Origin: a virus
Reading direction: 5' to 3' (one strand)
Length of the DNA stretch: 32,036 bases
IMG/VR virus record: IMGVR_UViG_3300046003_000023
Span: 1 to 32,036 of that record
Of this stretch, positions 1,928 through 26,202 are shown piece after piece (the stretch's first letter is position 1; each line of letters opens with the position of its first letter). The notes below the pieces were generated by a model. It was not told the origin of the DNA, did no database searches, and saw only the letters and a list, made by a program, of their open reading frames with translations. Made by a program: the position numbers and the translations under genes.

Positions 1928-2331
1928 AAGATTACCTCAACAATTCTGTATTTATCTTTAAAACCAAAACGGTCTAGCAGCCTAGATACAGAGTCCCGCG
2001 CAGCGCATTCAATCGCGGTTGCTCCGTTTGTCCTACAAATACTTTCTAGCTGTTTAAACGTCTCATCGTTAATAATTGACTTGCCACCCGTACCAGTAAT
2101 AAACGCAACTCTGTGATTGGGTCTGTTAAAAAAATCAACAGTCATTGCACCGTGAATCTTGTTCTCATCATCTGTTGCAACTAACAGCAGCCACCCACCA
2201 GTCAGTACATACATCTTAATTTGGTCAAGCGTATAGTCCCCTTTTGACTGCGCTTGCGACTCCGCCATATAACTTTCTACCAAAGGCCAAGTCTGTGCTG
2301 CGTGTTGCAAGGGAACGTGCTGTATCTTCAT
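1924..2331 (-). CDS. GNAT-fold acetyltransferase-like protein
   Basis: A 135-residue protein with the order of elements expected for a GNAT fold. These are an N-terminal helix pair, GGWLLLVATD (strand, residues 45-54), IHGAMTVDFFNRPNHRVAFIT (two strands, 59-79), GTGGKSI (80-86) at the place of the acetyl-CoA loop, a helix ETFKQLESICRTNG, then AIECAARDSVSRLLDRFGF, which resembles the strand-helix-GF ending of GNAT enzymes. The classical Q/RxxGxG/A loop is not clearly present, so catalysis is uncertain. It overlaps both neighbours by ATGA. From memory, similar proteins recur inside structural modules of environmental phages. Whether it modifies a virion protein or is a structural relic is unknown. 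Confidence 0.6.
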   Translation of the reverse strand: MKIQHVPLQHAAQTWPLVESYMAESQAQSKGDYTLDQIKMYVLTGGWLLLVATDDENKIHGAMTVDFFNRPNHRVAFITGTGGKSIINDETFKQLESICRTNGATAIECAARDSVSRLLDRFGFKDKYRIVEVIL

Positions 2332-3704
2332 GCTGGTAGGTGTTTATAAGCCTTTGAATCCACTGCAACCTTACCTTTTCCAACAGACTTGCGACGGTTC
2401 TTTTGTACACGATCCATCATGGCATACAAGCGTTTTGCACCGGCATCAGTGCTTCCATTGCCAAGCTCAGAAACAACGCGAGCAGGAACCACGAACTCAC
2501 CATCAGCAAGCCGAGCAGGCTGACGAGCGCCAATTTGAGCAGGGATACCATCGCTAACTCCATCGCCGGGGCCTCTTAGCAACTGACCGCCGTCTGAATA
2601 AGTGCCAAGTGAAGAGATACCGCCTTGGTTGTAACGTTGTGTGATTCTACCGCCGTTCTTTTGACCACCATCACCAGCAGCCCAACTTTCATATGGGCGA
2701 TACCCGCCTTCTTTTTCCGCTTCTTTTTCCCCTTCTTCTTTCTTTTTCTTTTTTGCTAACAAGTCGGCATAAACAGAACCTTCAGTTGGAACGAATGGTT
2801 GATTTGTTGTGGTAGTTGTCTCTGTTGCTTCTGATATTTGCGGTGGATTGATTCCTATTAAACCAGAATCAAAACCGGGGACTTGGTTTGGGCCGGGACG
2901 AGGGTTAATGTTGTACTGTGCGTTTGCGCGTTCCATAAGCTGTGCGTTGTATGCAGCCACTTCAGGAGCCACTTGACGCATAGGGCGCTCGTAGCGTTGT
3001 GTTTCTAAATCACCACCTTCAGCTAAAGCAATGATGCCACCGTTTGCTGCTGTGTAATCTTCAACCGGAGTCACCTTACCCGGTGTAAACCCACGGTCCG
3101 CCGTGTAGTATTTTTCACCCTGCTGACCAAACAATGGATTACGCTCGCCCGGATTAAAACCAAACTCTCGGATATTGCCTTTACTTTTTTCCTCTTCCTC
3201 ATTGGTCCGAGCCAGCATACCGCCTAGACCGCCACCCGTCAGTGCGCCTTTGTTTTGGGAAAGAAATTCGCCAATACCACCTTCAAATAAATTACCTATT
3301 CCGGATCCAGCGGAAGTAGTTGTAGCGCCTAAAGCCGGTGTAGTTAAAGGAGCGACCGTCATCGGAGCTGCAACATTAACCGCACTCGGGCCAATAACAC
3401 TAGGAAATCCGCCGCTAGTAACGGAATTAGTAAGCACGTTTTGTCCAAAGAGAGAAGGCGCGGATGCAGTACTTGCTCCCATACCACTTGCTCCAACTGC
3501 GGGGTTTAATATAGACGCCCCAGCTGTGCCAACAGCTTCACCACCAAGAGCGCCAGCGGCACCAGCGGCGGGCATAAGAAAGCTACCAGCAGCGCCACCA
3601 ACAGCACCCATTAGAGCGCCTTCAAGGACATTTTTCTTCTGCAAAGCGGCAATACCACCACCCATTGCAGCGCCCATAAGCAAACCAGCTACGATAGGGA
3701 TCAT
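2328..3704 (-). CDS. Gly-rich virion protein with LADGEFVVPA C-terminal domain
   Basis: A 458-residue protein in three parts. The hydrophobic Gly/Ala-rich N-terminus (about 1-55, IVAGLLMGAAMGGGIAAL) could insert in a membrane. The middle is low-complexity with GGIIALAEGGD and an unusually basic/acidic block (KKKKKEEGEKEAEKEGG, around residue 315). The C-terminal domain (about 365-458) carries RGPGDGVSDGIPA, LADGEFVVPARVVSELGNG and STDAGAKRLYAMMDRV. I recognise that domain as recurrent in phage virion proteins of unknown function. The start has only a weak ribosome site, GCGAG. It is followed at once by the GNAT-like gene. An internal-virion or membrane-penetration role is inference. Confidence 0.75.
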   Translation of the reverse strand: MIPIVAGLLMGAAMGGGIAALQKKNVLEGALMGAVGGAAGSFLMPAAGAAGALGGEAVGTAGASILNPAVGASGMGASTASAPSLFGQNVLTNSVTSGGFPSVIGPSAVNVAAPMTVAPLTTPALGATTTSAGSGIGNLFEGGIGEFLSQNKGALTGGGLGGMLARTNEEEEKSKGNIREFGFNPGERNPLFGQQGEKYYTADRGFTPGKVTPVEDYTAANGGIIALAEGGDLETQRYERPMRQVAPEVAAYNAQLMERANAQYNINPRPGPNQVPGFDSGLIGINPPQISEATETTTTTNQPFVPTEGSVYADLLAKKKKKEEGEKEAEKEGGYRPYESWAAGDGGQKNGGRITQRYNQGGISSLGTYSDGGQLLRGPGDGVSDGIPAQIGARQPARLADGEFVVPARVVSELGNGSTDAGAKRLYAMMDRVQKNRRKSVGKGKVAVDSKAYKHLPA

Positions 3705-16523: not shown

Positions 16524-17194
16524 TTGACGGGATACCTTACTTGACCGGATCTATATGCATCGCTCCTCTCTTTTCCGTCACCCAACTGTTTCAGCAGGGA
16601 CATACCTTCCATGTACTTCTGCTCGTAATTCTGAACCATATCAGGCTCTTGGCGCTGGAACACAGCAGCTTCCCGCAGCGCACCGTAGAACAAAGCGGTG
16701 TCAAAGTTGTCCCCTAGCCAAGTCGTACTTGCAGTCACGATAGACTCTGGATAAAAGAAGTAGTGCAGCTCAACAGAGTAGTTAGAATCAGGCTTTGGAC
16801 CCAAGATAAACGACAACTCGTTGGTCAAGACAGGAGGGTTACCGGAAGTTGTTGTAGGGCCAAAAATAGCGTAGTACTTTGGGACTCCGGTGTCTGTTGG
16901 AGATGGGTACGCCTGACGGATAAAGTTCACGTCCTTGTTTAGCAGATACTCGTACTCGCCTGTTGGCAAAATAACGGCTATGGAATACACCGACAAAAAA
17001 TCATTTGGAGCTGATAAATACGGATTACTAGGCGTAACCGACCCCGTAACGTTCTTACGCAGATACGAAAACTGAACCGAGTTATAAATACGCTGCTCTG
17101 CCGCTCTGACAAAAACGGGTATGTTATCGACAAACATTTGTTCATCGCTTTCCGAATAAGCCTGAATAGCAGCAGAGAGTTCAGAGTAGTTCAT
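16520..17194 (-). CDS. Head-to-tail adaptor-like protein (SU10-type)
   Basis: A 224-residue protein. The N-terminal helices read MNYSELSAAIQAYSESDEQM, then FVDNIPVFVRAAEQRIYNSV. A beta insertion follows (LSAPNDFLSVYSIAVILPTG, YYAIFGP). C-terminal helices contain LGDNFDTALFYGALREAAVF and QNYEQKYMEGMSLLKQLGDG. This helical shell with 'AE.RI' and 'AL.YG.L.EA' is typical of adaptors that ring the portal in SU10-like podoviruses. It starts in TAATG and ends in ATGA. The fold assignment is from memory and moderately sure. Confidence 0.7.
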   Translation of the reverse strand: MNYSELSAAIQAYSESDEQMFVDNIPVFVRAAEQRIYNSVQFSYLRKNVTGSVTPSNPYLSAPNDFLSVYSIAVILPTGEYEYLLNKDVNFIRQAYPSPTDTGVPKYYAIFGPTTTSGNPPVLTNELSFILGPKPDSNYSVELHYFFYPESIVTASTTWLGDNFDTALFYGALREAAVFQRQEPDMVQNYEQKYMEGMSLLKQLGDGKERSDAYRSGQVRYPVK

Positions 17195-17421
17195 TATGCC
17201 ATTGGTCCACGAGCCATACGACCTTTAGTTGCGCAGCCGTTGCCGCGAGTCTCGATACCAGTTGTTTTGACATCATTGCGGGCTGGATCACCAGCACTTA
17301 CACGTGAGGCAGGCATATCCAAACGAATCTTTTGGGCTTGCAATGTGTTTGGGTCAGTTGGGTACCCTTTGGTTGCGGCACTAGCCTCTTTACCAAACTG
17401 TTTACCGTTTAATTTAGCCAT
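17194..17421 (-). CDS. Small basic protein with C-terminal NGCATKG motif
   Basis: A 75-residue protein. GTG 17430 would overlap the upstream gene, but AAAGGTGG lies five bases before ATG 17421, so I use that. The sequence has LNGKQFGKEASAATKGYPTD, SRVSAGDPARNDVKTTGIET and ends RGNGCATKGRMARGPMA. The end matches the ends of the 20727-21128 and 21139-21561 proteins (DGCA(V/T)(R/K)GKTKG(R/T)MI). It lies directly after the adaptor region's small proteins and is followed by the adaptor-like gene (TAATG). Function is unknown. Confidence 0.7.
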   Translation of the reverse strand: MAKLNGKQFGKEASAATKGYPTDPNTLQAQKIRLDMPASRVSAGDPARNDVKTTGIETRGNGCATKGRMARGPMA

Positions 17422-17422
17422 G

Positions 17423-17614
17423 TTAGCCACCTTTCTGGTTCATAGCGCGAGCCATGTTACGACCCATCTTCTTCATTGCTAAAGATGTAACGCCTGAAGC
17501 ACCTTTTGAGCCTTTGCCTTTCATTGCAGCAACGGTCGGGCCGTCATTGCCAAGGTTCTTGCCTTCAGTCTTGCCTTTCTTTGCTACGCCATCTGCGCCA
17601 CGTTTGTATGCCAT
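17423..17614 (-). CDS. Small basic Gly/Lys-rich protein with variant motif
   Basis: A 63-residue protein starting MAYKRGADGVAKKGKTEGKN and ending SLAMKKMGRNMARAMNQKGG. The N-terminal GADGVAKKGKTEGK resembles the C-terminal RADGCATKGKTKG motif of three other small proteins here, but with Val in place of Cys and at the other end of the chain. It has a strong AAGGAG ribosome site. It is likely disordered and nucleic-acid- or virion-associated because of its charge (inference). Confidence 0.65.
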   Translation of the reverse strand: MAYKRGADGVAKKGKTEGKNLGNDGPTVAAMKGKGSKGASGVTSLAMKKMGRNMARAMNQKGG

Positions 17615-17624
17615 GATAGGCTCC

Positions 17625-18008
17625 TTAAGTAGTTGCTATTGTAACTGTACCAAGTTGAACCTGCACAATCAAGTCATTAGGCGTGAGACCGTTATCTCTT
17701 GCGCCACCAACAGGATTAAAACCCCACTGAAATATTCTACTGCCACCAGACGGATCGCCGTCAATATCCAAACCTGAAACAACGTAACTCGTATCTGGTC
17801 TTGGTTCCCGAACTGCTTGTGGATCATTAACAGGATACATGCCTAACTGCAACTGCGGCTGATCTGGATCCCAACAACTAGGGCAAACCTTAACGTTATA
17901 CAAATGCGTTTTTAATATCTGCTTCTTTAATTCTTTTAGCTTGTACCTTTGACCACACCGGTCACATTCGGCAATCGCATACTTACCTGACGCAAATTTA
18001 CTAGGCAT
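17625..18008 (-). CDS. Zinc-ribbon virion-region protein
   Basis: A 127-residue protein. Cysteines at 15, 18, 42 and 45 (AECDRCGQRY and KVCPSCWDPD) form a CxxC-23-CxxC zinc ribbon. The C-terminal half is Gly/Pro/Asp rich (SGLDIDGDPSGGSRIFQWGF) and ends in a hydrophobic strand LIVQVQLGTVTIATT. From memory, similar proteins occur between the adaptor-like genes of environmental podoviruses. The zinc ribbon could stabilise a small virion subunit or bind DNA. Neither is shown. Confidence 0.75.
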   Translation of the reverse strand: MPSKFASGKYAIAECDRCGQRYKLKELKKQILKTHLYNVKVCPSCWDPDQPQLQLGMYPVNDPQAVREPRPDTSYVVSGLDIDGDPSGGSRIFQWGFNPVGGARDNGLTPNDLIVQVQLGTVTIATT

Positions 18009-18016
18009 ACGTCACC

Positions 18017-18937
18017 TTAGTAAAAAAGGTTTCGAGGCACAAAACGAATAGAAGCCTTCTCTCGGTCCTCGTCTGCAGCAAGTTGGAACTGTTGTTCGTA
18101 ATCTTGTTTAAGCATAACAATTCTATTTGGATCCACTTCTGGCAGCTTCATGCTTAGGCTAAACGCAAGCCCAGAAACCAAACAGGGAATAAAACGAAAT
18201 GGAATGTCTTGTGTAGATACGCCGCCACCAGAGTCTTGAATACGACGCATTCTGTAGTAAACGAACGTATATTGGTCACCCGGTGCATTAGGTGTAGGCC
18301 AGACGTTAATGTTTGGTGGGAATGTTTGGTAAACAGAAGCTGCTGTTAAATGCGAGGCTGCCGTTGTATTAGCCTGTCCACGAAAGCAGTTCAACAGTTG
18401 GCTGCCACTTACGTTCTGGTACATGATAATTTCGTTATCAACCTTGATGTAGCCTTGGCTTGGTAAGTTTGCCGCTGATATCACAGTGATAGTTGTATCT
18501 GTTGCCGTTATCCCACCGTTTAAAGTTGTCGTAGCAATTGCGTTTGTATTGCCAGACTGCCGGTTAATCCACACCTGAATGGGACGCCCTTGAGCGTTTT
18601 TAGTGGGGATTGTGATGTAAGTGGACTCAGAGATACGGGTAATGTTGATATCAACCTGATTTTGATCGGAACCTGTGCGAATAACGGTATCCAACAGATC
18701 AATTGTCTCAGTAGGTAGAGCGTAAGTTGCCTGCCCTGTAACCATCGGAATCTGACCTTGCTCGATAGTCCACAGGTTAATACCACGGTTTGCCCACTCA
18801 ACCGTCAATAGGTTAATGCTACGACGTGCCGTGCGCAGATCATATCCAGTACGCAGCTCTTTGCCGCAACGCTCAAACGCCTCTTCCACCAACTCGGAGA
18901 GGTCAAGATTAAACGACGAGGTACCAGAAGTCGTCAT
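18017..18937 (-). CDS. gp4-like tail accessory / adaptor protein with inserted beta module
   Basis: A 306-residue protein. The N-terminal helices LSELVEEAFERCGKELRTGY, then LRTARRSINLLTVEWANRGI, followed by LPTETIDLLDTVIR, match the helical core of podoviral gp4-like accessory factors that extend the portal. Residues about 136-203 (TLNGGITATDTTITVISAAN, EIIMYQNVSG, FRGQANTTAASHL) are an inserted beta module that also occurs in the nozzle-like protein. The C-terminal helices PFRFIPCLVSGLAFSLSMKL and MLKQDYEQQFQLAADEDREK complete the core. It starts in TAATG with the Gly/Met-rich gene. It probably works with the 224-residue adaptor in head closure. Confidence 0.75.
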   Translation of the reverse strand: MTTSGTSSFNLDLSELVEEAFERCGKELRTGYDLRTARRSINLLTVEWANRGINLWTIEQGQIPMVTGQATYALPTETIDLLDTVIRTGSDQNQVDINITRISESTYITIPTKNAQGRPIQVWINRQSGNTNAIATTTLNGGITATDTTITVISAANLPSQGYIKVDNEIIMYQNVSGSQLLNCFRGQANTTAASHLTAASVYQTFPPNINVWPTPNAPGDQYTFVYYRMRRIQDSGGGVSTQDIPFRFIPCLVSGLAFSLSMKLPEVDPNRIVMLKQDYEQQFQLAADEDREKASIRFVPRNLFY

Positions 18938-19956
18938 TAAAATGTACCTCGTTTAAACATTTGCGACAATGAAGCTAGTCCAGCAGATGGGTTTTGAAAG
19001 AATTGTTGTGTTTGTGCTTGGCTTTGCGCACGTTGCTCTGGAGTTCTACGGTCTACAAAATCATCACCGCCCATAGCACCACCCATACCACTCATGCCAC
19101 GCATACTTTGAGCGTAAGGACGTGCGTAAGCGGGTATTTGATTCATGCCACCGGGATTGGATAGCGCACCAAATGTTTGAGGTGACATTGAAGACTGACC
19201 AACAGATTGGCTGCCAGCACCCGTTGCACCTTGCATTTGATCCATGTAGTTTTGGTATTGCTGATCCAGTTGCGGGCTTGATGCGCCACCCATGCCGCCA
19301 GCGCCTTGAGCCATGCGCTCTGCTTGTAATGTTTCGGGGCTAACGTTTGCAAAACCACTATTAAGAGGCTGCTGCATTTGGCTCTGACCCATGCCTTGCA
19401 TACCGCCACGGCTATAACCACCCATACCGCCACGGCTATAACCACCCATACCGCCACCAAAACCACCCATCTGTGGGGGTTGGTTAAACCCACCGCCCAT
19501 ACCACCACCGTAGCCACCCATTGGCTGACCACCGCCGCCCATACCAAAGCCACCCATCTGTGGGCCGTATCCACCACCAAAACCACCCATGCCGCCCATC
19601 TGGGGACTAAACCCACCCATACCGTAGCCGCCACCCATCGGGTTGTACTGGTTAAACCCACCACCGAATCCACCACCCATGCCGCCACCAAAACCACCCA
19701 TCTGGGGTGATTGGTTGTATCCACCAAACTGACTCTGCATGGGGCGTTGCATTTGTTGCTGCATTGGCTGGGACTGTTGACCGCCGTAGCCGCCCATAGG
19801 CTGACCGCCACCAAAGCTGTTATTCGCAGGCTGTTGACCAAAGCCACTCGTGTTGTAATTTGGTATCGGTTCATAGCCTCCACCTCCGGGGCCATTGACA
19901 CCACGCATTCCGGGTGGTGTACCACCCATTCCGCCTGCTCCGCCGCCACCAGCCAT
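18937..19956 (-). CDS. Gly/Met/Gln-rich low-complexity virion protein
   Basis: A 339-residue protein. Residues about 1-190 are almost only Gly, Met, Gln, Pro, Phe and Tyr, in repeats such as QMGGFGGGMGGGF and GGYSRGGM. The second half has PETLQAERMAQGAG, a Gln-rich linker, NQIPAYARPYAQSMRGM and a C-terminal helix region DFVDRRTPEQRAQSQAQTQQ ending MFKRGTF. IPAYARPYA is shared with the protein at 374-1927. It lies just before the gp4-like gene. I do not recognise a family. A disordered virion or ejection-associated role is plausible from the composition. Confidence 0.65.
   Translation of the reverse strand: MAGGGGAGGMGGTPPGMRGVNGPGGGGYEPIPNYNTSGFGQQPANNSFGGGQPMGGYGGQQSQPMQQQMQRPMQSQFGGYNQSPQMGGFGGGMGGGFGGGFNQYNPMGGGYGMGGFSPQMGGMGGFGGGYGPQMGGFGMGGGGQPMGGYGGGMGGGFNQPPQMGGFGGGMGGYSRGGMGGYSRGGMQGMGQSQMQQPLNSGFANVSPETLQAERMAQGAGGMGGASSPQLDQQYQNYMDQMQGATGAGSQSVGQSSMSPQTFGALSNPGGMNQIPAYARPYAQSMRGMSGMGGAMGGDDFVDRRTPEQRAQSQAQTQQFFQNPSAGLASLSQMFKRGTF
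19399..19446 (-). repeat. 24-base tandem coding repeat (two exact units)
   Basis: The plus-strand 24-base unit beginning cataccgccacggctataa is present twice exactly, with a partial third unit. It encodes GGYSRGGM twice inside the Gly/Met-rich protein. The surrounding 19399-19710 is a broader field of related ccaccaaaaccacccat copies. Confidence 0.85.
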
Positions 19957-19958
19957 AA

Positions 19959-20198
19959 TTACACCTTCCTAAACTGTTTAACTTTCTGTTTAATTTTAGC
20001 TGGTTGTGGCACAAACTGTTTACCTGCCGCCTTACCTGCTCGTTTAGCTTTAGTCGTTGCTGCATACTCCGCAGGGCTTAATGCTTTAATAGCTTTTTCT
20101 GGCAAATACCGCTCACCCGTTTCCGAGGATTTCTTGCCGGACTTGGTTGTCCATTTCTGGTCACCCCAAGCTTTTAAGGATTTTTGCGGCGCTTTCAA
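19959..20198 (-). CDS. C-terminal half of a split DUF5872-like protein
   Basis: A 79-residue frame with a TTG start (20198-20196) embedded in the stop of the previous ORF (ATTGA). The sequence reads KAPQKSLKAWGDQKWTTKSG, then ETGERYLPEKAIKALSPAEY, AATTKAKRAGKAAGKQFVPQ and a basic tail. This is the pattern I recall for the C-terminal part of DUF5872 proteins (SL-W-W-T-G-RYLP-A-LSP-E-AAT-KR-GKQFV). In the family this part follows a GQWSARKAQ-AKEY-GGGY segment, which here lies in the upstream ORF in the other frame. It is either a coupled two-gene form with GGGGG as ribosome site, a -1 frameshift product, or a 1-base deletion. Confidence 0.75.
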   Translation of the reverse strand: MKAPQKSLKAWGDQKWTTKSGKKSSETGERYLPEKAIKALSPAEYAATTKAKRAGKAAGKQFVPQPAKIKQKVKQFRKV

Positions 20199-20374
20199 TC
20201 TCGGTAGCCCCCGCCAGAAGCCTTATACTTTTTAGCCACTAGCTGCGCTTTTCTCGCGCTCCATTGACCTGCACCTGTACCTTGAGTAGCTGCAGACTTA
20301 ACTTGCGACACAATCTTCTTACGTAGGCTCGGCTTGGTGTAGTTGCCAGCGGCATTTACCTTGCTACTAGCCAT
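20195..20374 (-). CDS. N-terminal half of a split DUF5872-like protein
   Basis: A 59-codon frame, MASSKVNAAGNYTKPSLRKK, then IVSQVKSAATQGTGAGQWSA and RKAQLVAKKYKASGGGYRD. It begins in a TAATG overlap with the gene before it. The TKP-LR-I, GQWSARKAQ-AK-Y and GGGY elements are the N-terminal part of DUF5872-like proteins as I remember them. It stops at TGA exactly where the second half starts in the -1 frame. Confidence 0.75.
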   Translation of the reverse strand: MASSKVNAAGNYTKPSLRKKIVSQVKSAATQGTGAGQWSARKAQLVAKKYKASGGGYRD

Positions 20375-20730
20375 TATTTGTACCCCTTAAATCCTTTAAA
20401 ACCCGGCAAGGCTTTGGCCTTTTTAGTTACACCGCCTTTTGCGTACATACCGGTTTTTAGCTGCTTACGTTTGCCTTGCCGGAACTCTAGTTCTTTTTGC
20501 AGAGCTTGTGTGCGAGGAGCGTTGTTACTGCGCCGCGCTTCTTGAAAACGTTGGTTTAACGTCCCATCATCCAATTGCGGCACACCAGCATTTCCTACAA
20601 ACCCAGCCTCTGGGTCAACCGTGCCACCTTCAGCATACTGCGTGAAGTCAGTATCGTCGCGGCGAGCTTTACGCTTTCCACCGGGCATCTTTGAAGGGAG
20701 CATTGCACCCATACCGCGACTAGACATCAT
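20374..20730 (-). CDS. Small basic protein with two GG motifs
   Basis: A 118-residue protein with a basic N-terminus (MLPSKMPGGKRKARRDDTDF), then TQYAEGGTVDPEAGFVGNAG, a helical middle (LNQRFQEARRSNNAPRTQAL QKEL) and a C-terminus GMYAKGGVTKKAKALPGFKG. It has two (E/K)GG(T/V) motifs of the type seen across neighbouring virion proteins. It overlaps the upstream gene by ATGA and the downstream one by TAATG. No enzymatic signature is visible, and it is probably virion-associated (inference). Confidence 0.65.
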   Translation of the reverse strand: MMSSRGMGAMLPSKMPGGKRKARRDDTDFTQYAEGGTVDPEAGFVGNAGVPQLDDGTLNQRFQEARRSNNAPRTQALQKELEFRQGKRKQLKTGMYAKGGVTKKAKALPGFKGFKGYK

Positions 20731-21128
20731 ATCATTCGACCTTTAGTTTTACCGCGAACAGCACAGCCATCAGCACGACTAGAAGCAGATCCACCTTTAG
20801 CCATCTTTTTAACTGCGCCGCCCTTTTTAAAGCCAGCGTAGTCTAATGATTCATCAGAAAGACGTGGAGCGCTTCTAGACGACGATGTAGGACTCGAAAA
20901 ATCGCGTATGTCACCAGCTTTTTTGGGATCAACGTACGGCAAAGATGTTTCTTTTACCCCATCCCTGACTTCAGTTTTTGCTCCAGCTAAAGCAGCGTCT
21001 CTCTCTGCTTTAGCGGCTTCTTTAGCAGCTTCTTTTCTTGCTTCGTTGCTCATGCCTCTAGTAGCCGCTTTTGTAGCAAGCGCCCTTACGCCTGCGGCTA
21101 CAACCGGGCCAATAATTGGTGCAGGCAT
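20727..21128 (-). CDS. Basic protein ending in the RADGCAVRGKTKG motif
   Basis: A 133-residue protein. An N-terminal hydrophobic stretch PAPIIGPVVAAGVRALATKA is followed by a charged helix NEARKEAAKEAAKAERDAAL. A Ser/Pro-rich middle follows, then FKKGGAVKKMAKGGSASSRA and DGCAVRGKTKGRMI at the very end. The last 25 residues are nearly the same as a segment of the 21139-21561 protein, so the two share a C-terminal tag. GGAGAATATT precedes the ATG. Function is unknown. Confidence 0.7.
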   Translation of the reverse strand: MPAPIIGPVVAAGVRALATKAATRGMSNEARKEAAKEAAKAERDAALAGAKTEVRDGVKETSLPYVDPKKAGDIRDFSSPTSSSRSAPRLSDESLDYAGFKKGGAVKKMAKGGSASSRADGCAVRGKTKGRMI

Positions 21129-21138
21129 AATATTCTCC

Positions 21139-21561
21139 TTAGCAGCTCATGCCGCCGGATTTCATTTTAATCATTGTGCCTTTGGTTTTGCCTTTTGTAG
21201 CGCAGCCATCAGCACGGCTAGAAGCGGAACCACCTTTTGCGAGCTTGGTCATGTTAGACTTTTTGCCACCATGCAACTGCGCTTCGTGCATACCAATAGC
21301 TTTTTTAGCCATTGCTTTGTCTTGCATCATGTCGTCTTTCATAGCACCACCTTCCTTGAATAATGTCATTTTACCGTGATCGGTTTTTGGACTACCAACT
21401 TTCTGTAAGTCAGGACGAGAGCCGGTAGTAAACCTCTTGCCTTTACTTGCTTTTGAATATTCCTGTGCAACACCTACTGGAATGCCTGCTTCTTTTGCAA
21501 ACGCTGGATTATGCGCTGCGGCATCCATGAATTTCTTTTGCTTATCTGATGTGGCTGGCAT
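21139..21561 (-). CDS. DUF3008-like N-terminus plus RADGCATKGKTKG tag
   Basis: A 140-residue protein. The N-terminus (MPATSDKQKKFMDAAAHNPA) and GIPVGVAQEYSKASKGK resemble DUF3008-type small proteins ('Ps.aQ.kFm.aa.....a...gis..vA.e...ask'). The rest has LFKEGGAMKDDMMQDKAMAK, LAKGGSASSRADGCATKGKT, and ends KMKSGGMSC. It therefore carries three GG motifs and the shared Cys motif. It overlaps the upstream gene by TAATG. A virion-associated role is inferred from context. Confidence 0.7.
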   Translation of the reverse strand: MPATSDKQKKFMDAAAHNPAFAKEAGIPVGVAQEYSKASKGKRFTTGSRPDLQKVGSPKTDHGKMTLFKEGGAMKDDMMQDKAMAKKAIGMHEAQLHGGKKSNMTKLAKGGSASSRADGCATKGKTKGTMIKMKSGGMSC

Positions 21562-21800
21562 TATCGAAGCACCCTATCAATGATCCAAGTTAAACCGCTG
21601 CCAACAAGTCCACCAGCACCACCAAAATACATTAGCACTCTCCACCCACCTTTGGCTTCGGAAAGAGTCTTTTGAATCTCGGCAAGTGTATTTTTGACTT
21701 GATCCATATCCTCTACAAGTTTATCCATGTCCTGTTGCAAATGCTTAATCTCATTTGCATGGGTAGCAAGTTCACGAGCTGTTTGCACGGAATCTTCCAT
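21561..21800 (-). CDS. Small coiled-coil plus transmembrane protein (XhlA/holin-like)
   Basis: A 79-residue protein. A heptad-rich coiled coil occupies about 8-50 (LATHANEIKHLQQDMDKLVE, MDQVKNTLAEIQKTLSEAKG). A single hydrophobic segment follows at 53-75 (WRVLMYFGGAGGLVGSGLTW), then a short basic end IIDRVLR. This order is that of XhlA/hemolysin-type small membrane proteins sometimes used as accessory holins. It lies far from the lysis cassette, inside the small-protein cluster. It could instead be a membrane-docking virion subunit. Confidence 0.65.
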   Translation of the reverse strand: MEDSVQTARELATHANEIKHLQQDMDKLVEDMDQVKNTLAEIQKTLSEAKGGWRVLMYFGGAGGLVGSGLTWIIDRVLR

Positions 21801-22055
21801 TTAACACTTCCATCTCTTTAAACTTGCGGCTTTGCGGGTAGGTCTTCCTTTCTCGTCTGTCATCGGGCCGGGCATACCAGACATCCGTGCGCAGAACGAC
21901 TTCTTACGAGGACCGCCTTCGGGCTGTGGAGCCTTCAAGTTAGATCCTGTAGCAGCGTTGTACTTGGCACGACCTTTGGCAGTCAACCCTGCCCCCTTGG
22001 ATACGGGTAGCTTCTCGCCACGACCGACAGCCAGAGAAGGGGTCTTCTTAGCCAT
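21801..22055 (-). CDS. DUF6321-like small basic protein
   Basis: An 84-residue basic protein with KGAGLTAKGRAKYNAATGSN, then LKAPQPEGGPRKKSFCARMS and MPGPMTDEKGRPTRKAASLK, ending RWKC. I recognise this as the small conserved phage/bacterial protein annotated DUF6321. It is full length for the family. Two cysteines (in SFCARM and at the last residue) are conserved as I remember it. It overlaps the upstream gene by 8 bases. The molecular role is unknown. Confidence 0.75.
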   Translation of the reverse strand: MAKKTPSLAVGRGEKLPVSKGAGLTAKGRAKYNAATGSNLKAPQPEGGPRKKSFCARMSGMPGPMTDEKGRPTRKAASLKRWKC

Positions 22056-22554
22056 AGTAAATATTCGCAGACGTAATGTTGGTCATGCGGAGATAGATGC
22101 CGTTTTGAATCAGCACACCTTCACCGGGAATTAAAACAATATTACCAAACACATCTGTTGCGCCTACATCATACGAGTTAACCCATAATGTCGAATACGC
22201 AAGAGCAGTACTTGCAATCGTGCCTGAGTTAATGTCGGTAAGGGTAAAGGCGTTTGGACCTGTTACAGTAATTGTGTAATTACCGTTTGTGGCTGATATA
22301 CCAGATGCACTAGCGAAAGCAAAGCCCCGCACATCGCCTGTTGCTAACCCATGATCCGCACTAGTCACTGTGACTGTTGCGCCAGAACGTGTGTAAGTTG
22401 CCGTTGTTACCGGCGCAGTCGTAGTGTCAAAAATATCAAGCGTACCCGCAGTAGCAGAGCCAACAGTAGATAAAGCTTTAAGCCGTGTACGACCTAACAG
22501 AATAAAACCAGTATTGTTTAAATGCGCTGCTTTTACGTCATATTGCATTGCCAT
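22048..22554 (-). CDS. Structural protein with FCCH-like beta module
   Basis: A 168-residue protein. The N-terminus reads MQYDVKAAHLNNTGFILLGR. A module at about 52-112 (YTRSGATVTVTSADHGLATG, then GNYTITVTGPNAFTLTDINS) is a common phage beta module, sometimes named after FCCH-like domains. A related one lies in the nozzle-like protein. The C-terminus (IVLIPGEGVLIQNGIYLRMT) is a typical end for small virion decoration or collar proteins. TTAGGAG lies before the ATG. It is the first gene after the UUCG terminator, so its promoter may be weak readthrough or undetected. Confidence 0.75.
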   Translation of the reverse strand: MAMQYDVKAAHLNNTGFILLGRTRLKALSTVGSATAGTLDIFDTTTAPVTTATYTRSGATVTVTSADHGLATGDVRGFAFASASGISATNGNYTITVTGPNAFTLTDINSGTIASTALAYSTLWVNSYDVGATDVFGNIVLIPGEGVLIQNGIYLRMTNITSANIYYG

Positions 22555-22573
22555 AATTAGCTCCTAAGAAGTA

Positions 22574-22596
22574 CAAAAGCCCACCGAAGTGGGCGG
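22574..22596 (-). terminator. Rho-independent terminator with UUCG loop
   Basis: On the minus strand GCCCAC-TTCG-GTGGGC forms a perfect 6-base-pair stem with a TTCG tetraloop (22579-22594), followed by TTTT. It lies in the 46-base gap after the stop of the GNVT-repeat gene, so it ends that unit. The T tract is short, so partial readthrough into the next genes is likely. Confidence 0.8.
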
Positions 22597-22600
22597 CTAA

Positions 22601-23086
22601 TTAGGCTGTACGCGAGAACGTATAGGCAGTTGCGCTTGCAAACATTAGCGTAAAGCGAGCAATACCCGTAGCGCCAGCAGCAATAGTCAAATCTCCAAAG
22701 CTTCCGGGGGTATCCGCAGCCGCTGAAGACAAGATGCCGTTTACAGCAACAGCCATAGTTACAGTGCTTGCGCCAGCAGTGTTGTCAACATAGAGATCAA
22801 ACACTGTGCCTTGAACCGCACCAAGAGCAGCGCCAAGAAGCGTTCCCGTAGGAAGCGTAATTGCAGTTGCAGCGGCGGAAGTGGATGTAATATAGCCAGT
22901 AGCAACTTGTGCTGCTGTTGCAGTAGCTGTAGCGTTAATAGCGGCTGTAGTAGCGTGGGTGATTTTGCCAGTGCCAGCGACGTTGCCGGTGACGTTGCCG
23001 GTGACGTTGCCGGTGACGTTACCAGTCAGATTGCCGATAAAACCGTTTGTGGACGTGACTGGGCCGGAGAAGGTGGTTGATGCCAT
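22601..23086 (-). CDS. Head-fibre or decoration-like protein with GNVT repeats
   Basis: A 161-residue protein. The N-terminus MASTTFSGPVTSTNGFIGNL runs into four GNVT-type repeats (to about residue 36), a triple-stranded-fibre type start. An Ala/Thr-rich linker follows, then a domain with LPTGTLLGAALGAVQGTVFD, YVDNTAGASTVTMAVAVNGI and ARFTLMFASATAYTFSR. This pattern resembles small head-fibre/decoration proteins, trimeric by fibre logic. It has its own promoter, structured leader and terminators on both sides, which suggests high and independently controlled expression. Its ribosome-site context AGGAGCCTATCATGGC is identical to that of the 17614 gene. Confidence 0.7.
   Translation of the reverse strand: MASTTFSGPVTSTNGFIGNLTGNVTGNVTGNVTGNVAGTGKITHATTAAINATATATAAQVATGYITSTSAAATAITLPTGTLLGAALGAVQGTVFDLYVDNTAGASTVTMAVAVNGILSSAAADTPGSFGDLTIAAGATGIARFTLMFASATAYTFSRTA
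22979..23026 (-). repeat. 12-base tandem coding repeats (GNVT)
   Basis: Four tandem copies of the plus-strand unit gacgttgccggt occur (the fourth has two changes), and degenerate units continue to about 23050. They encode (GNVT)n in the N-terminal shaft of the head-fibre-like protein. Repeat number could change by slippage. Confidence 0.85.
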
Positions 23087-23094
23087 GATAGGCT

Positions 23095-23171
23095 CCTGTA
23101 TATGCAGTACTACGCCTCACTGTCTCTGCATCGTCCGCTGGGGCGGTCAGTAAGGCTGGGGGTTCCCAGAT
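23095..23171 (-). ncRNA. Structured 5' leader of the head-fibre-like gene
   Basis: Between the predicted start site (about 23171) and the ribosome site there are three hairpins in minus-strand RNA order. The first is CTGGG-AACC-CCCAG (23169-23156), at the very 5' end. Next is an outer stem of GCCTTACTG (23156-23148) with CAGTGAGGC (23122-23114), 9 pairs including one G-T. It encloses CCGC-CCCA-GCGG (23146-23135). The first and second stems share the C at 23156. The elements leave the AGGAG open. It could be a stabilising leader or a regulatory RNA. No known family is recalled. Confidence 0.55.
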
Positions 23172-23178
23172 TTGTTTA

Positions 23179-23206
23179 ATAATAACCTATACAACAATAA
23201 ATGCAA
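23179..23206 (-). promoter_or_regulatory. Sigma70-like promoter for the head-fibre-like gene
   Basis: On the minus strand TTGCAT (23206-23201), a 16-base spacer and TATTAT (23184-23179) lie in an AT-rich patch just after the capsid terminator and about 95 bases before the ATG at 23086. The -10 box matches five of six consensus bases and the -35 four of six. Start would be near 23171. Confidence 0.6.
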
Positions 23207-23210
23207 GCAA

Positions 23211-23240
23211 TAAAAAACCCCGCTTTTTTAAGGCGGGGCT
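23211..23240 (-). terminator. Strong rho-independent terminator after major capsid gene
   Basis: On the minus strand CCCCGC-CTTAAAAAA-GCGGGG (stem arms 23238-23233 and 23223-23218) is followed by TTTTTTATT. It lies 25 bases after the capsid stop codon and closes the head-gene transcript. Confidence 0.9.
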
Positions 23241-23265
23241 AAACCATTAGTTTCTAACGGTTTAC

Positions 23266-24174
23266 TTAAGCACCTGCGCTGCCGTACATGCCAAGCGGAT
23301 CGCTCCATCCAAAGCTGTAACGCTCGCGAGACTTGTAACGTACGTTACCTGTATCGAAGTCACCGTCCATTGACTGGGCGAGTGGTGAACGAACAAAGTG
23401 CTTCATGCCGTTAGGAACATCAGTTGTCAAGAACCATGCGTTCGTGTCGGTCAGGAAGTTATTGATTGTATAACCGTCTGGGATCGAACCATTGTTCTTA
23501 ATGGCGTTGATGTTGTTATCAGCAGTGTTCGTCTGCAGTTCCGTTTCGAGCAAGCGAGTTGCAACGAATTGGAGTGCTGGAGGAACAATTAGCTTCTTGG
23601 GCTTAGCAGCGATTAACAAACCACGTTCATCAGTCCACGCAGCGATTTGAATAACGGCGGCTTCCAAGGAAGTCTCGTTCAAGTCAGCTGGAGTGCCGGG
23701 AATGTTGCTGTTTACGCCACCAGAAACCAAGGGATGCGATGCGCTAAACAGAGCAACTCCGTCACCGCCCGTGTAGGACGCTGAGAAGCCGTTGTTCAGA
23801 ACAGCAGCTGACTTGACTTGCTTGGTGTAAGCCATTGCGCGGGCGAGAGCCTTCGTATAACGAGCCGACAAACTGTCGTACAAGTTATCTTCAATTGCTT
23901 CTTCCGTTAGGGAAAACCCTAGTGCGATGGTTTCATGGTTGTATCGAGCAGTCCAAGCTTCCTGAGCGTTGTCGTATGCAATTGCAGAACCTTCGTTCTT
24001 AACAGGTGCAGCCGAGAAGCCAGAGAGTTTGGTTTCTTCTTCGAATGAACGCTCAGAGGTCTCTGTTTCGTAGATCTCTTTATGCTGTTCACCATAACGT
24101 GCGTACTCCAGACCGAACAATGCGTTCAGGCCGGGGAGCAGCTCTTTCAGTAGTTGTGCGCGTGAAATAGCCAT
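23266..24174 (-). CDS. Major capsid protein
   Basis: A 302-residue protein. The sequence has AQLLKELLPGLNALFGLEYA, an extended arm-like stretch (ETETSERSFEEETKLSGFSA), LGFSLTEEAIEDNLYDSLSA, and a helix ALARAMAYTKQVKSAAVLNN. A segment FSASHPLVSGGVNSN and the end RYSFGWSDPLGMYGSAGA follow. The length, the 'e.yg......E.tei...r....e....sgfg' start, and the 'SaSHp' segment fit phage major head subunits of the HK97 fold, Mu gpT-like in style. It is the last gene of the head operon before a strong terminator, after portal, scaffold-like and decoration-like genes. Confidence 0.8.
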   Translation of the reverse strand: MAISRAQLLKELLPGLNALFGLEYARYGEQHKEIYETETSERSFEEETKLSGFSAAPVKNEGSAIAYDNAQEAWTARYNHETIALGFSLTEEAIEDNLYDSLSARYTKALARAMAYTKQVKSAAVLNNGFSASYTGGDGVALFSASHPLVSGGVNSNIPGTPADLNETSLEAAVIQIAAWTDERGLLIAAKPKKLIVPPALQFVATRLLETELQTNTADNNINAIKNNGSIPDGYTINNFLTDTNAWFLTTDVPNGMKHFVRSPLAQSMDGDFDTGNVRYKSRERYSFGWSDPLGMYGSAGA

Positions 24175-24185
24175 GATTTAGCTCC

Positions 24186-24806
24186 TTATACGCCGACGGC
24201 GGTGTTATACGCATGCATGCCGAAGTTGAACTTTACGATCACTTCAGGATACAACGTGTTGCCGCCAGAAATGTAGGCGGTGTCAGGCACAACGTCAACG
24301 ATGCGAATAGTCAGCGTAGCTGTATCAGCAGTCGAATCAAGAAGTGCAATCTGTGAGTTACCAGCAGCGGTAATTGCGGTGTTATTTACGATTGTTGCGT
24401 TATTGCCAACAGAAGTATATTGAACGCCGGTTACGACCGTTGTGCCAGAAACAACAGCAACTTGGAACAATGTATCTGGATCATCACAAACATAAGCTGT
24501 GATGTAGCCAGTTGTTACTGTTGTACCACCAACAAAGTTCTGTTGGAATTGCAGTTGACCAGTACTTGAGTTGATAAACTCAACACCAAGAAACACACCA
24601 GCGAAGCCGCCAGTAGGTTTAGTAGTTGTAGCAGCCGAGCGCTCAACGGTACCGTCAGTTGCACGAATCAGTAGATCACCGAAACCAATCGAAGTTGCAT
24701 ACCCGCTTGCAATACGCATCTTACGAGTGGAACCAGCAAACACCTGACCACCGATCAAATTGATCGGCTTAAAGCCATAAGGCTTGTCAATAGTGGGGTA
24801 AGCCAT
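24186..24806 (-). CDS. Capsid decoration-like structural protein
   Basis: A 206-residue protein. A TTG at 24818 would extend it, but GGAG lies six bases before ATG 24806, so the product begins MAYPTIDKPYGFKPINLIGG. It is beta-rich with many Thr/Val/Gly, including FAGSTRKMRIASGYATSIGF, GDLLIRATDGT, FAGVFLGVEFINSSTGQLQF and YPEVIVKFNFGMHAYNTAVG. It directly precedes the major capsid gene. From memory such proteins before the capsid gene are head-stabilising or decoration proteins in environmental podoviruses. The precise role is inferred. Confidence 0.7.
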   Translation of the reverse strand: MAYPTIDKPYGFKPINLIGGQVFAGSTRKMRIASGYATSIGFGDLLIRATDGTVERSAATTTKPTGGFAGVFLGVEFINSSTGQLQFQQNFVGGTTVTTGYITAYVCDDPDTLFQVAVVSGTTVVTGVQYTSVGNNATIVNNTAITAAGNSQIALLDSTADTATLTIRIVDVVPDTAYISGGNTLYPEVIVKFNFGMHAYNTAVGV

Positions 24807-24827
24807 GTTTAACTCCAAAAATTAAAT

Positions 24828-25277
24828 TTAAGATCCTTTTCCAAAGCTTGTTGCAGACTTGCTCTCTTTAAAGAGTGGCATCCGCGCATCGCTTTGGCGC
24901 ATTAAGTTATTGTCTACAGCTTCCGTCTGGGCTTGTGTTTGCTTTGCATAATGCTCGTTGCGTTGCTCAACAAATTCAGAAGGAGTCTTGCAAAGTAATA
25001 ACCCGCCAATCTCAACGTTGTCTTTAAACCGACTGTTGGGATCAACTAGCAGTTGGAATTGCGGTTGCTCTTCTATCTTTACCGGCTCCCAGCCTTCTCT
25101 GAGTTTGGCAGAAAGGTTACGTGGGTCAGCTTGGTTAAGCATAGAAACGCGGATCCATCGGTAAGCAAACCCAGCCTGTTTGTTCGGCTCAGGGAGCAAT
25201 TCCGCCGGTGCCCACTGCTTAGGGCGCTGTTGGGTTGCACGGGTTTCTAACTCTCGGGTAAGTCTATTTTCAGCCAT
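24828..25277 (-). CDS. Conserved head-module protein of unknown function
   Basis: A 149-residue protein. It reads LETRATQQRPKQWAPAELLP, AGFAYRWIRVSMLNQADPRN, then LSAKLREGWEPVKIEEQPQF, IGGLLLCKTPSEFVEQRNEH, and a Gln-rich helix with a basic end. 'f.yRWiRvs....d..N...+l.eGWe.V' is a recurrent pattern in head modules of environmental podoviruses. It lies between scaffold-like and decoration-like genes. The ribosome site is GGAG at the end of the scaffold gene. Confidence 0.7.
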   Translation of the reverse strand: MAENRLTRELETRATQQRPKQWAPAELLPEPNKQAGFAYRWIRVSMLNQADPRNLSAKLREGWEPVKIEEQPQFQLLVDPNSRFKDNVEIGGLLLCKTPSEFVEQRNEHYAKQTQAQTEAVDNNLMRQSDARMPLFKESKSATSFGKGS

Positions 25278-25278
25278 G

Positions 25279-26202
25279 TTAATTCTCCAGTTTTAGTGCT
25301 TCACGGGCATACTGTTCAGGGGTCAAACCAAGTTTTTTAGCAATTTGGACTTGACTAGCCTTTAGCTTTATCTTGTTTGAAGATGTGCTTCTAGTAGCCG
25401 GGGCTACAACCGTACTGGACTTTGTACGAGACGTATTTCTCGTTTCTGTTTCAGAATCCTCAAAGTTTTCCGAAAATCGTCTGCGCATTGTCTTGTCCAA
25501 CGTCGCATAATAATCGTCTGATCCTACAAGAACACCGTTGCGTTTAAGCTTTTCGTGTAAGCCTAAAGCCGCAGCAGTCATTTCCTCGTCTTGACCAAAC
25601 CAAGTATTGCGCTCTTGCCACGCCATCGCACGGTTATCAGGTCGAGGAGCCTGTTGGGATACTTGTTGCTGTTGTACTTCAATTTCTTGCTGTTGTACAG
25701 GGGTAGGGCGATAATTTTTTGCAGAGTGTAGCTTAAAATTAGCATCCTGCATTGCCTGTTGAGCATCTACTAGTTTGTCCCCATCTCCAGAGTCATAAGC
25801 CTCTTTATACGACTTTTTCGCCATTTCCAGTTCCATAGCCGCAGCATTCTGGACTGTATGGACATACTCTTGTTCACCAGCTGTGTACCGCTCTTTTAAC
25901 CGTTTGTTTTCTTCCGTAACGCGGCGAGCGTAGTCAATAGCCTCTTGCTGTTCACGATAGGCAGATTCTTTAGCGCGACGCTCGTCATGCCAAACCTTTT
26001 TCATCTGCTTGAGACGCAGCTTAACTTTGTCAGAATATTCCTCCAACTCGTCTTGCTCTAGCTCTTCGACTACTTCCTTGGGCATTGGCTCTTTATTACG
26101 ATCTTCAGGGGGAGTATCGTCTTCGATCTCGATCTCAAGCTTAATTTCAGCTTTGTCCCCATTTTCAGCTTCGTCTGGGAACTTAAATTCGTCCTTATCC
26201 AT
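25279..26202 (-). CDS. Scaffold-like head assembly protein
   Basis: A 307-residue protein. The acidic N-terminus (MDKDEFKFPDEAENGDKAEI) leads into a long charged coiled coil about 48-185 (KVKLRLKQMKKVWHDERRAK, VTEENKRLKERYTAGEQEYV). A Gln-rich linker (VQQQEIEVQQQQVSQQA) follows, then a helical C-terminus VQIAKKLGLTPEQYAREALK. Acidic, helical, with a basic C-terminal helix-turn-helix tip, between portal/GroES-like and capsid genes: this is the profile of a phage scaffolding protein. The EELEQDELEEYSDK segment adds to the negative N-terminus. No protease motif is visible. Confidence 0.75.
   Translation of the reverse strand: MDKDEFKFPDEAENGDKAEIKLEIEIEDDTPPEDRNKEPMPKEVVEELEQDELEEYSDKVKLRLKQMKKVWHDERRAKESAYREQQEAIDYARRVTEENKRLKERYTAGEQEYVHTVQNAAAMELEMAKKSYKEAYDSGDGDKLVDAQQAMQDANFKLHSAKNYRPTPVQQQEIEVQQQQVSQQAPRPDNRAMAWQERNTWFGQDEEMTAAALGLHEKLKRNGVLVGSDDYYATLDKTMRRRFSENFEDSETETRNTSRTKSSTVVAPATRSTSSNKIKLKASQVQIAKKLGLTPEQYAREALKLEN

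Follow-up and report, generated by a model that had tools for sequence, protein, structure and literature searches.

A short basic peptide shared by divergent small proteins of a phage head gene cluster: a candidate docking tag for virion loading

Several small proteins encoded between the capsid and head-tail adaptor genes of a phage in the IMG/VR collection carry the same short peptide on otherwise dissimilar sequences, which raises the question of what this peptide is for. The phage is represented by a single virus record, IMGVR_UViG_3300046003_000023, and the window referred to below is this whole stretch of 32,036 bases. The peptide, which we designate the tag, has the motif G-[C/I/V]-[A/E]-x-[K/R]-GKT-[K/R]-G; in relatives it mostly forms the extreme C terminus, and in one protein of the window it forms the N terminus. 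The remainder of each protein is called the body. Our preferred interpretation, held with modest confidence, is that the tag is a short linear docking peptide that loads small, mostly basic, and quickly exchanged proteins into the virion.

The original prediction assigned the motif to four small proteins of the window (A to D). All four peptides were found in place on the minus strand, and analysis with a profile built from 161 metagenome tags revealed that three of the proteins share the motif. Protein A (140 amino acids [aa]; 21139..21561, minus strand), which scored 50.2 bits, consists of an N-terminal three-helix domain, a linker, and a tag near the C terminus (residues 104 to 131, ending ASSRADGCATKGKTKGTMI; 21169..21252, minus strand), and its last residue is Cys. 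Protein B (133 aa; 20727..21128, minus strand; 49.2 bits) has the tag as its C terminus (residues 107 to 133, KKMAKGGSASSRADGCAVRGKTKGRMI-COOH; 20730..20810, minus strand). Protein D (63 aa; 17423..17614, minus strand; 23.2 bits, E value of 3.5e-7) carries the tag at its N terminus (GADGVAKKGKTEGK; residues 2 to 19, 17558..17611, minus strand). The best 80 of 549 D relatives were 61 to 100% identical to it over nearly the full length, and 65 of these 80, picked by a pattern containing part of the motif, were aligned. When A, B, and D were scanned against PHROGs and Pfam among 10 small window proteins, no match at the thresholds used covered the tag.

The fourth protein, C (78 aa, or 75 aa from an internal ATG; 17194..17430, minus strand), was rejected as a tag carrier on three grounds. 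Its best domain scored 6.2 bits against the tag profile (E value of 0.07, not significant), and a profile-profile comparison gave a probability of 7.9 in a different register. Alignment of nine family members showed an invariant C terminus, R-G-x-G-x-A-T-K-G-x-M-x-R-G-P-M-A, that ends RGPMA, and eight of the nine have Ala where C of the window has the look-alike Cys. C thus belongs to a separate conserved family, in which a variable N-terminal part is followed by a conserved tail, KTxGIKxRGTGAATKGxMARGPMA (nine sequences), that is itself unexplained.

The suggestion that the motif might be a disulfide or metal site did not hold either, since Ile is commoner than Cys at the position concerned (83 Ile, 66 Cys, and 10 Val among the 161 tags). 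The two Gly residues before the tag are invariant columns across 95 representative proteins. The proteins had also been described as otherwise unrelated, and simple paralogy is indeed ruled out, as the bodies of A and B fall into different clusters. A-like proteins nearly always end in Cys (C140 in at least 90% of 55 aligned), unlike proteins that end three residues after the core of the tag (+3).

The motif proved to be abundant. In IMG/VR, at least 120 contigs matched a degenerate DNA pattern representing ADGxAxxG[KR]T[KR]G, with two to five copies in 30 of the 80 matches listed, whereas the pattern in permuted order matched 19 contigs once each, and none of these 19 loci contained a real tag. 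The motif is therefore present far beyond chance. Of 178 copies, which include four from the window's own two (in two overlapping regions) and a few chance matches, 169 lay within 15 residues of the C terminus; when the set was widened to 255 unique copies in 113 loci, 155 of the 254 closed copies extended exactly three residues past the core. A second form, GGGCExRGKTKG, gave at least 120 IMG/VR matches. At the protein level it was represented by 81 unique copies from 81 loci, 77 of which end exactly three residues after the core, and the first form also was present in 32 of these loci. When A-like proteins were chosen by their N-terminal domain, the script pattern detected a first-form core in 53 of 80; inspection by eye of the other 27 revealed many with a third form, GGGIExKGKTKG, and some with another tail or none.

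Tagged genes keep company with the same virion genes. In 96 of the pattern-bearing loci (15 refetched as larger regions and nine without a core by the script pattern were left out), at least one non-tag relative of window genes was found in 95 and at least two in 94, and the major capsid protein (MCP), contained in 36 loci, was 74 to 98% identical. Regions fetched from 15 records showed a recurrent order of MCP, a DUF6321 protein, tagged genes, small conserved genes, and adaptor; two of them start after the MCP, and one (L275) has no tagged gene in the gene call though the DNA pattern is present. The MCP of the window (23266..24174, minus strand; phrog_371, major head protein) served as a marker of the lineage and of the position of the tag cluster. 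The best 80 of at least 600 loci chosen by MCP contained 66 tags downstream of the MCP on its strand and one elsewhere. Among the 22 with at least 6 kb after the MCP, 20 had tags (one to five each, 1.6 to 5.7 kb downstream, same strand).

The carriers are one large lineage of mostly uncultivated water phages. Short tag queries against 50,697 sequenced-phage records returned three related Planktothrix/Synechococcus phage records (Pag-Yong1 and two alike) at an E value of 6, and other short queries returned no match or one doubtful fecal contig at an E value of 1; with queries this short and the low-complexity filter of BLAST, the true number can be higher. The Pag-Yong1 protein (UMO75986.1) ends RDGCAKRGRTKGRFI and, like the tagged proteins, is encoded between capsid and portal-adaptor genes; it is the single tagged protein in the 24-kb stretch searched, and its body is unlike A, B, and D by eye. 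Full-length B had no match in sequenced phages, and no tag was found in the stretches of HTVC033P and CRP-13 searched. In the bacterial and archaeal genome collection, the pattern was present in at least 118 loci, and the 118 listed gave 52 protein-level matches. Only six were tag-like, from two metagenome-assembled genome contigs (L142 twice and L191 four times), and the tag was rejected as a feature of cellular genes. A megablast search of plasmids with positions 17000-25000 of the window gave no match, and nothing relevant to a conserved C-terminal motif, GKTKG/RGKTRG, or DUF6321 was found among open-licence PMC papers.

The bodies joined to this tag are readily exchanged. Over p18017, p17625, D, the adaptor, and p15329, relatives L560-L562 were 97 to 100% identical to the window, and the slot that holds B in the window and in L557-L559 contained, with the tag kept, either a protein of 107 residues whose last 33 are the same (L561 and L562) or a third protein (L560). 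BLAST aligned residues 26 to 133 of window B with the L561 protein at 47%, an alignment carried by the tag; the bodies without the tag gave no hit at an E value of 0.01. Compared in 30-base blocks, the DNA of the two was 0.77 to 1.0 identical over the tag and downstream and about 0.3 identical upstream of the tag. Identity in this ungapped comparison also drops for L559, which has the same body with a 3-base deletion, so the claim of a swap rests on the protein comparison.

To put a rate on this exchange, gene pairs with matching downstream DNA were counted. Unrelated bodies were seen in 8 of 46 tagged pairs with downstream DNA at least 95% identical, 16 of 33 at 90 to 95%, and 194 of 293 at 80 to 90%; the values for untagged pairs were 4 of 232, 30 of 339, and 594 of 6,452. 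Counted by slot at 90%, the figures were 14 of 92 tagged versus 18 of 549 untagged, with both totals inflated by repeat fetches of the same contig. As judged from these pairs, which are not independent and in which an inserted extra tagged gene counts as well as a replacement, the turnover of tagged bodies was about 5 to 10 times that of untagged neighbors. This bears on the idea that the tagged proteins are fittings rather than cargo, namely cement, decoration, or neck proteins that the tag would hold on the capsid exterior or at the neck. The position of the tagged genes between capsid and adaptors would suit such a role, as would that of D, two genes ahead of an adaptor-like gene, and the A and DUF6321 domains form terminal parts of long proteins in PHROGs. 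Fittings nevertheless would be expected to be conserved, yet the bodies turn over several times more than their untagged neighbors, and most bodies carry net positive charge; we consider fittings unlikely.

Another possibility is that the tag matters as DNA, the conserved 3' end of the gene acting as a hinge that aids recombination of bodies, with the peptide incidental. The sharp fall in DNA identity upstream of the B tag is what a hinge predicts. However, 141 tags ending at +3 comprised 138 distinct DNA cores but 49 core peptides, every invariant residue of the tag was encoded by at least two codons, and the tags of A and B within the window differ in DNA (a 77-base repeat of 77% identity). 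A hinge thus appears very improbable. With codons varying and likeness within genomes lying at the protein level, the sequences indicate that the tag is selected as a peptide and not as DNA.

That likeness was assessed by comparing tags on different body clusters of the same genome. Their identity was 0.568, compared with 0.436 after shuffling, a value reached in none of 2,000 shuffles. The choice between Lys and Arg could track G+C content, and a second analysis was confined to positions 3, 5, 13, and 14 and to comparisons of matched G+C, with 52 within-locus pairs contributed by 33 loci. Identity at these non-K/R positions was 0.572 within a locus and 0.367 between loci of near-equal G+C (0 of 2,000 shuffles), and the result was retained for pairs whose bodies lack a mutual BLAST hit (48 pairs, 32 loci; 0.589 versus 0.365; 0 of 2,000 plain shuffles). 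K/R positions alone gave a weaker signal (36 of 2,000 shuffles), and codon identity was 0.450 within and 0.437 between genomes. Such matching would be expected from co-evolution with one partner and equally from a duplication long ago whose products stayed under a common constraint, but not from recent copying.

Matching within genomes demands only some shared partner. That partner might have nothing to do with the virion and instead be a chaperonin, a protease, a polymerase, or a similar factor of host or phage, and a GroES-like gene does lie among the head genes. Set against this are the placement of the tagged genes in the head gene cluster and the finding that, among close relatives whose head genes are shared, the bodies vary but not their position, and we regard a nonvirion factor as quite improbable.

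The charge of the tag would also fit a different partner. Net charge was positive in all 229 tags (median, +7) and in 199 of the 229 bodies (median, +8), and several small basic proteins are encoded in a row, as might be expected if the tag bound nucleic acid directly and the proteins condensed packaged DNA like small histones. The core also resembles a phosphate-binding loop, GxxxxGKT. A P-loop (Walker A motif) has the pattern [AG]x4GK[ST] followed by a helix, with an invariant Lys. The main core forms fit this pattern, but some A-like proteins have His or Leu in place of the Lys of GKT, and most copies have about three residues after the core, too few for a true P-loop helix; on these grounds a P-loop nucleoside triphosphatase was rejected. 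Ser did not replace Thr in any of the tails listed, most searches having fixed the Thr. Unspecific DNA binding also does not predict the matching of non-K/R positions within genomes, and DNA condensation by the tag seems to us rather improbable. The common partner or docking site that had been proposed for the motif is supported, with one tag on some 80 body clusters, matching within genomes at the protein rather than the codon level, and retention of the tag through body swaps.

By BLAST the 229 bodies formed 83 clusters, of which 63 have a single member; the count is approximate (starts taken as the first ATG, strict linkage) and may correspond to fewer families. When 95 representative tagged proteins were compared with PHROGs and Pfam, four matched DUF6321, three were A-like, and two had single weak Pfam hits (Spo0A_C and YnaL). 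The DUF6321 protein of the window (21801..22055, minus strand; PF19846, E value of 1.5e-23, 83.7 bits against a curated Pfam cutoff of 28.5) is untagged. Of 77 DUF6321 relatives, 62 end at or within three residues of W-x-C, 10 have a first-form tag, four have a variant tag, and one has another tail, the added tails sitting directly behind W-x-C. In these sequences, then, the same DUF6321 body is found with and without the tag. Residues 1 to about 41 of A match PHROGs, two of which are called virion structural protein, and correspond to the start of 121Q gp51, which is annotated as a structural protein. The DUF6321 domain and the A N-terminal domain (phrog_16759 and phrog_22033) are small modules of the same gene cluster, found alone or at the ends of longer phage proteins in PHROGs; they are bodies, and the tag is an addition on some of them. 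Two proteins (L301:2408-2929 and L343:8421-8801) combine the start of the A N-terminal domain with a DUF6321-like end (SLKRWKC), and, judging from such arrangements, small modules of the tag cluster seem to recombine with each other.

AlphaFold2 modeled residues 1 to 40 of A as three helices with high confidence (predicted local distance difference test [pLDDT] score of 88 to 95), and the tag scored 47 to 56. In the model of a DUF6321 protein, the tag formed a low-confidence hairpin (pLDDT score of 33 to 39). A conserved short peptide that is not folded with confidence alone has, as modeled, the look of a docking motif. A fold search of the PDB with the A model gave 12 matches, none useful (best E value of 1.1), and sequence searches of the PDB with A, MCP, an adaptor-like protein, and p22048, followed by the capsid profile, gave no match.

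For the docking interpretation, we envisage that the tag, usually behind a Gly-Gly linker, would be presented at the very C terminus (rarely the N terminus) of small, mostly basic proteins encoded between MCP and the head-tail adaptors. A single partner available while the head is assembled (the acidic N terminus of the scaffold, the capsid interior, or the portal region) would bind the tag and so bring whichever body is attached into the virion. Both the virion location and the partner of the tagged proteins are what we infer. The scaffold-like protein (25279..26202, minus strand; named by position; phrog_28737, function unknown) is a candidate partner. Its first 80 residues have a net charge of -12 in the window and -9 to -17 in 14 listed relatives, and the portal N terminus of the window has a net charge of -23; acidic N termini of this kind fit a basic tag. 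Capsid or DNA, the partners named in the original prediction, are plausible from gene position and charge. A Mantel screen of 12 genes against tag distance gave weak values throughout, not corrected for shared ancestry or linkage, of which the highest was that of p19959 (r of 0.241), followed by that of the scaffold (0.191, 25 loci). This conserved small basic protein, encoded shortly after the tag cluster (19959..20198, minus strand; phrog_14910), may be a weak candidate.

The arrangement recalls two known systems. As described in PMC9026906, small and poorly conserved internal proteins of T4 are packaged by way of an N-terminal sequence they have in common, and a host restriction enzyme is inhibited by one of these proteins, IPI. 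Like the tag, the capsid targeting sequences of IPI, IPII, IPIII, and relatives are short basic peptides shared by divergent small proteins, and they are described there as poorly conserved between related phages (PMC9026906). They are N-terminal, about 10 residues suffice, and they are cut off by the prohead protease, whereas the tag has another sequence and is mostly an intact C terminus, though N-terminal in D-like proteins. A scan of 27 window proteins (not all genes of this 32-kb record) against PHROGs revealed no separate prohead protease, and the match of the MCP to fused protease-capsid PHROG profiles is to their capsid part. Encapsulins, as described in PMC8346489, take up unrelated cargo by short C-terminal peptides into a shell of the HK97 fold; some of these peptides are N-terminal, like the tag of D. 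These are cellular compartments with enzyme cargo, and the TVGSL motif given there (PMC8346489) is absent from the tag consensus; the tag occurs in a phage with portal and terminase, and its MCP is a major head protein (phrog_371) encoded beside those genes. By analogy, the tag would work most like the loading peptides of T4 and encapsulins and, because of its own sequence, position, and setting, is a member of neither class. By the same analogy, the fast-replaced bodies may be cargo that travels to the next host or is delivered into it, like the T4 internal proteins; delivery into cells is the least certain step. That a single C-terminal address peptide, co-evolving with one head-assembly partner, packs an open-ended set of exchanged basic proteins for next-host delivery throughout the lineage is a proposal we advance tentatively.

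Several observations weigh against loading into the virion or against parts of it. Two of the 22 MCP-chosen loci lacked a tag, by a pattern that misses the GGGCE and GGGIE forms. DSL-LC04, which is a metagenome assembly by the description in PMC10611076, and HTVC027P (62 to 65% MCP identity) have no tag in the stretches searched, the corresponding slot included, so this capsid type does not need the tag. The tag of D is at the opposite end and includes an acidic residue (GKTEGK). Some untagged neighbors of B also vary in near-identical relatives (C is 67% and p19959 is 87% identical, and a Gly/Met-rich gene is absent). The bodies match no anti-host family, PADLOC returning two weak hits for the 95 representatives. 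The Mantel screen named no clear partner among its 12 genes, and searches turned up neither a virion proteome nor a structure for any tagged protein.

If the tag is an address label for the virion, every tagged metagenome protein becomes a predicted virion or injected protein, and dozens of otherwise featureless small protein families gain a testable role. Capsid targeting then would extend beyond T4-like phages, phages would have their own parallel to the cargo loading of encapsulins, and the engineering of phage particles would gain a naturally occurring C-terminal loading tag. Should the cargo be delivered, the tag also would be a ready means of finding anti-host proteins. The slot in which bodies change under a constant tag is itself a clean site at which to watch the turnover of phage accessory genes.

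The main genes of the window are encoded by the minus strand and follow the order of phage late genes: terminase, portal, GroES-like, scaffold-like, MCP, a run of small genes, two adaptor-like genes, tail genes, and endolysin, with the terminase, scaffold, and adaptor named from position and annotated relatives. From 23086 down to 16104 the genes listed lie close together, with many overlaps and no gap of more than 46 bases. A protein encoded at 2328-3704 contains GGQLLRGPGDGVSDGIPAQIG and more GG repeats toward its C-terminal part, which resemble the linkers preceding the tag. The Gly/Met-rich protein (18937-19956; 339 residues, 30% Gly) is present in the window, L557, and L558 and was not found in L559-L562 despite nearly identical flanking genes. 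In L559, about 2.1 kb (698-2799) separates p17625 from D, a spacing that is 10 bases in the window.

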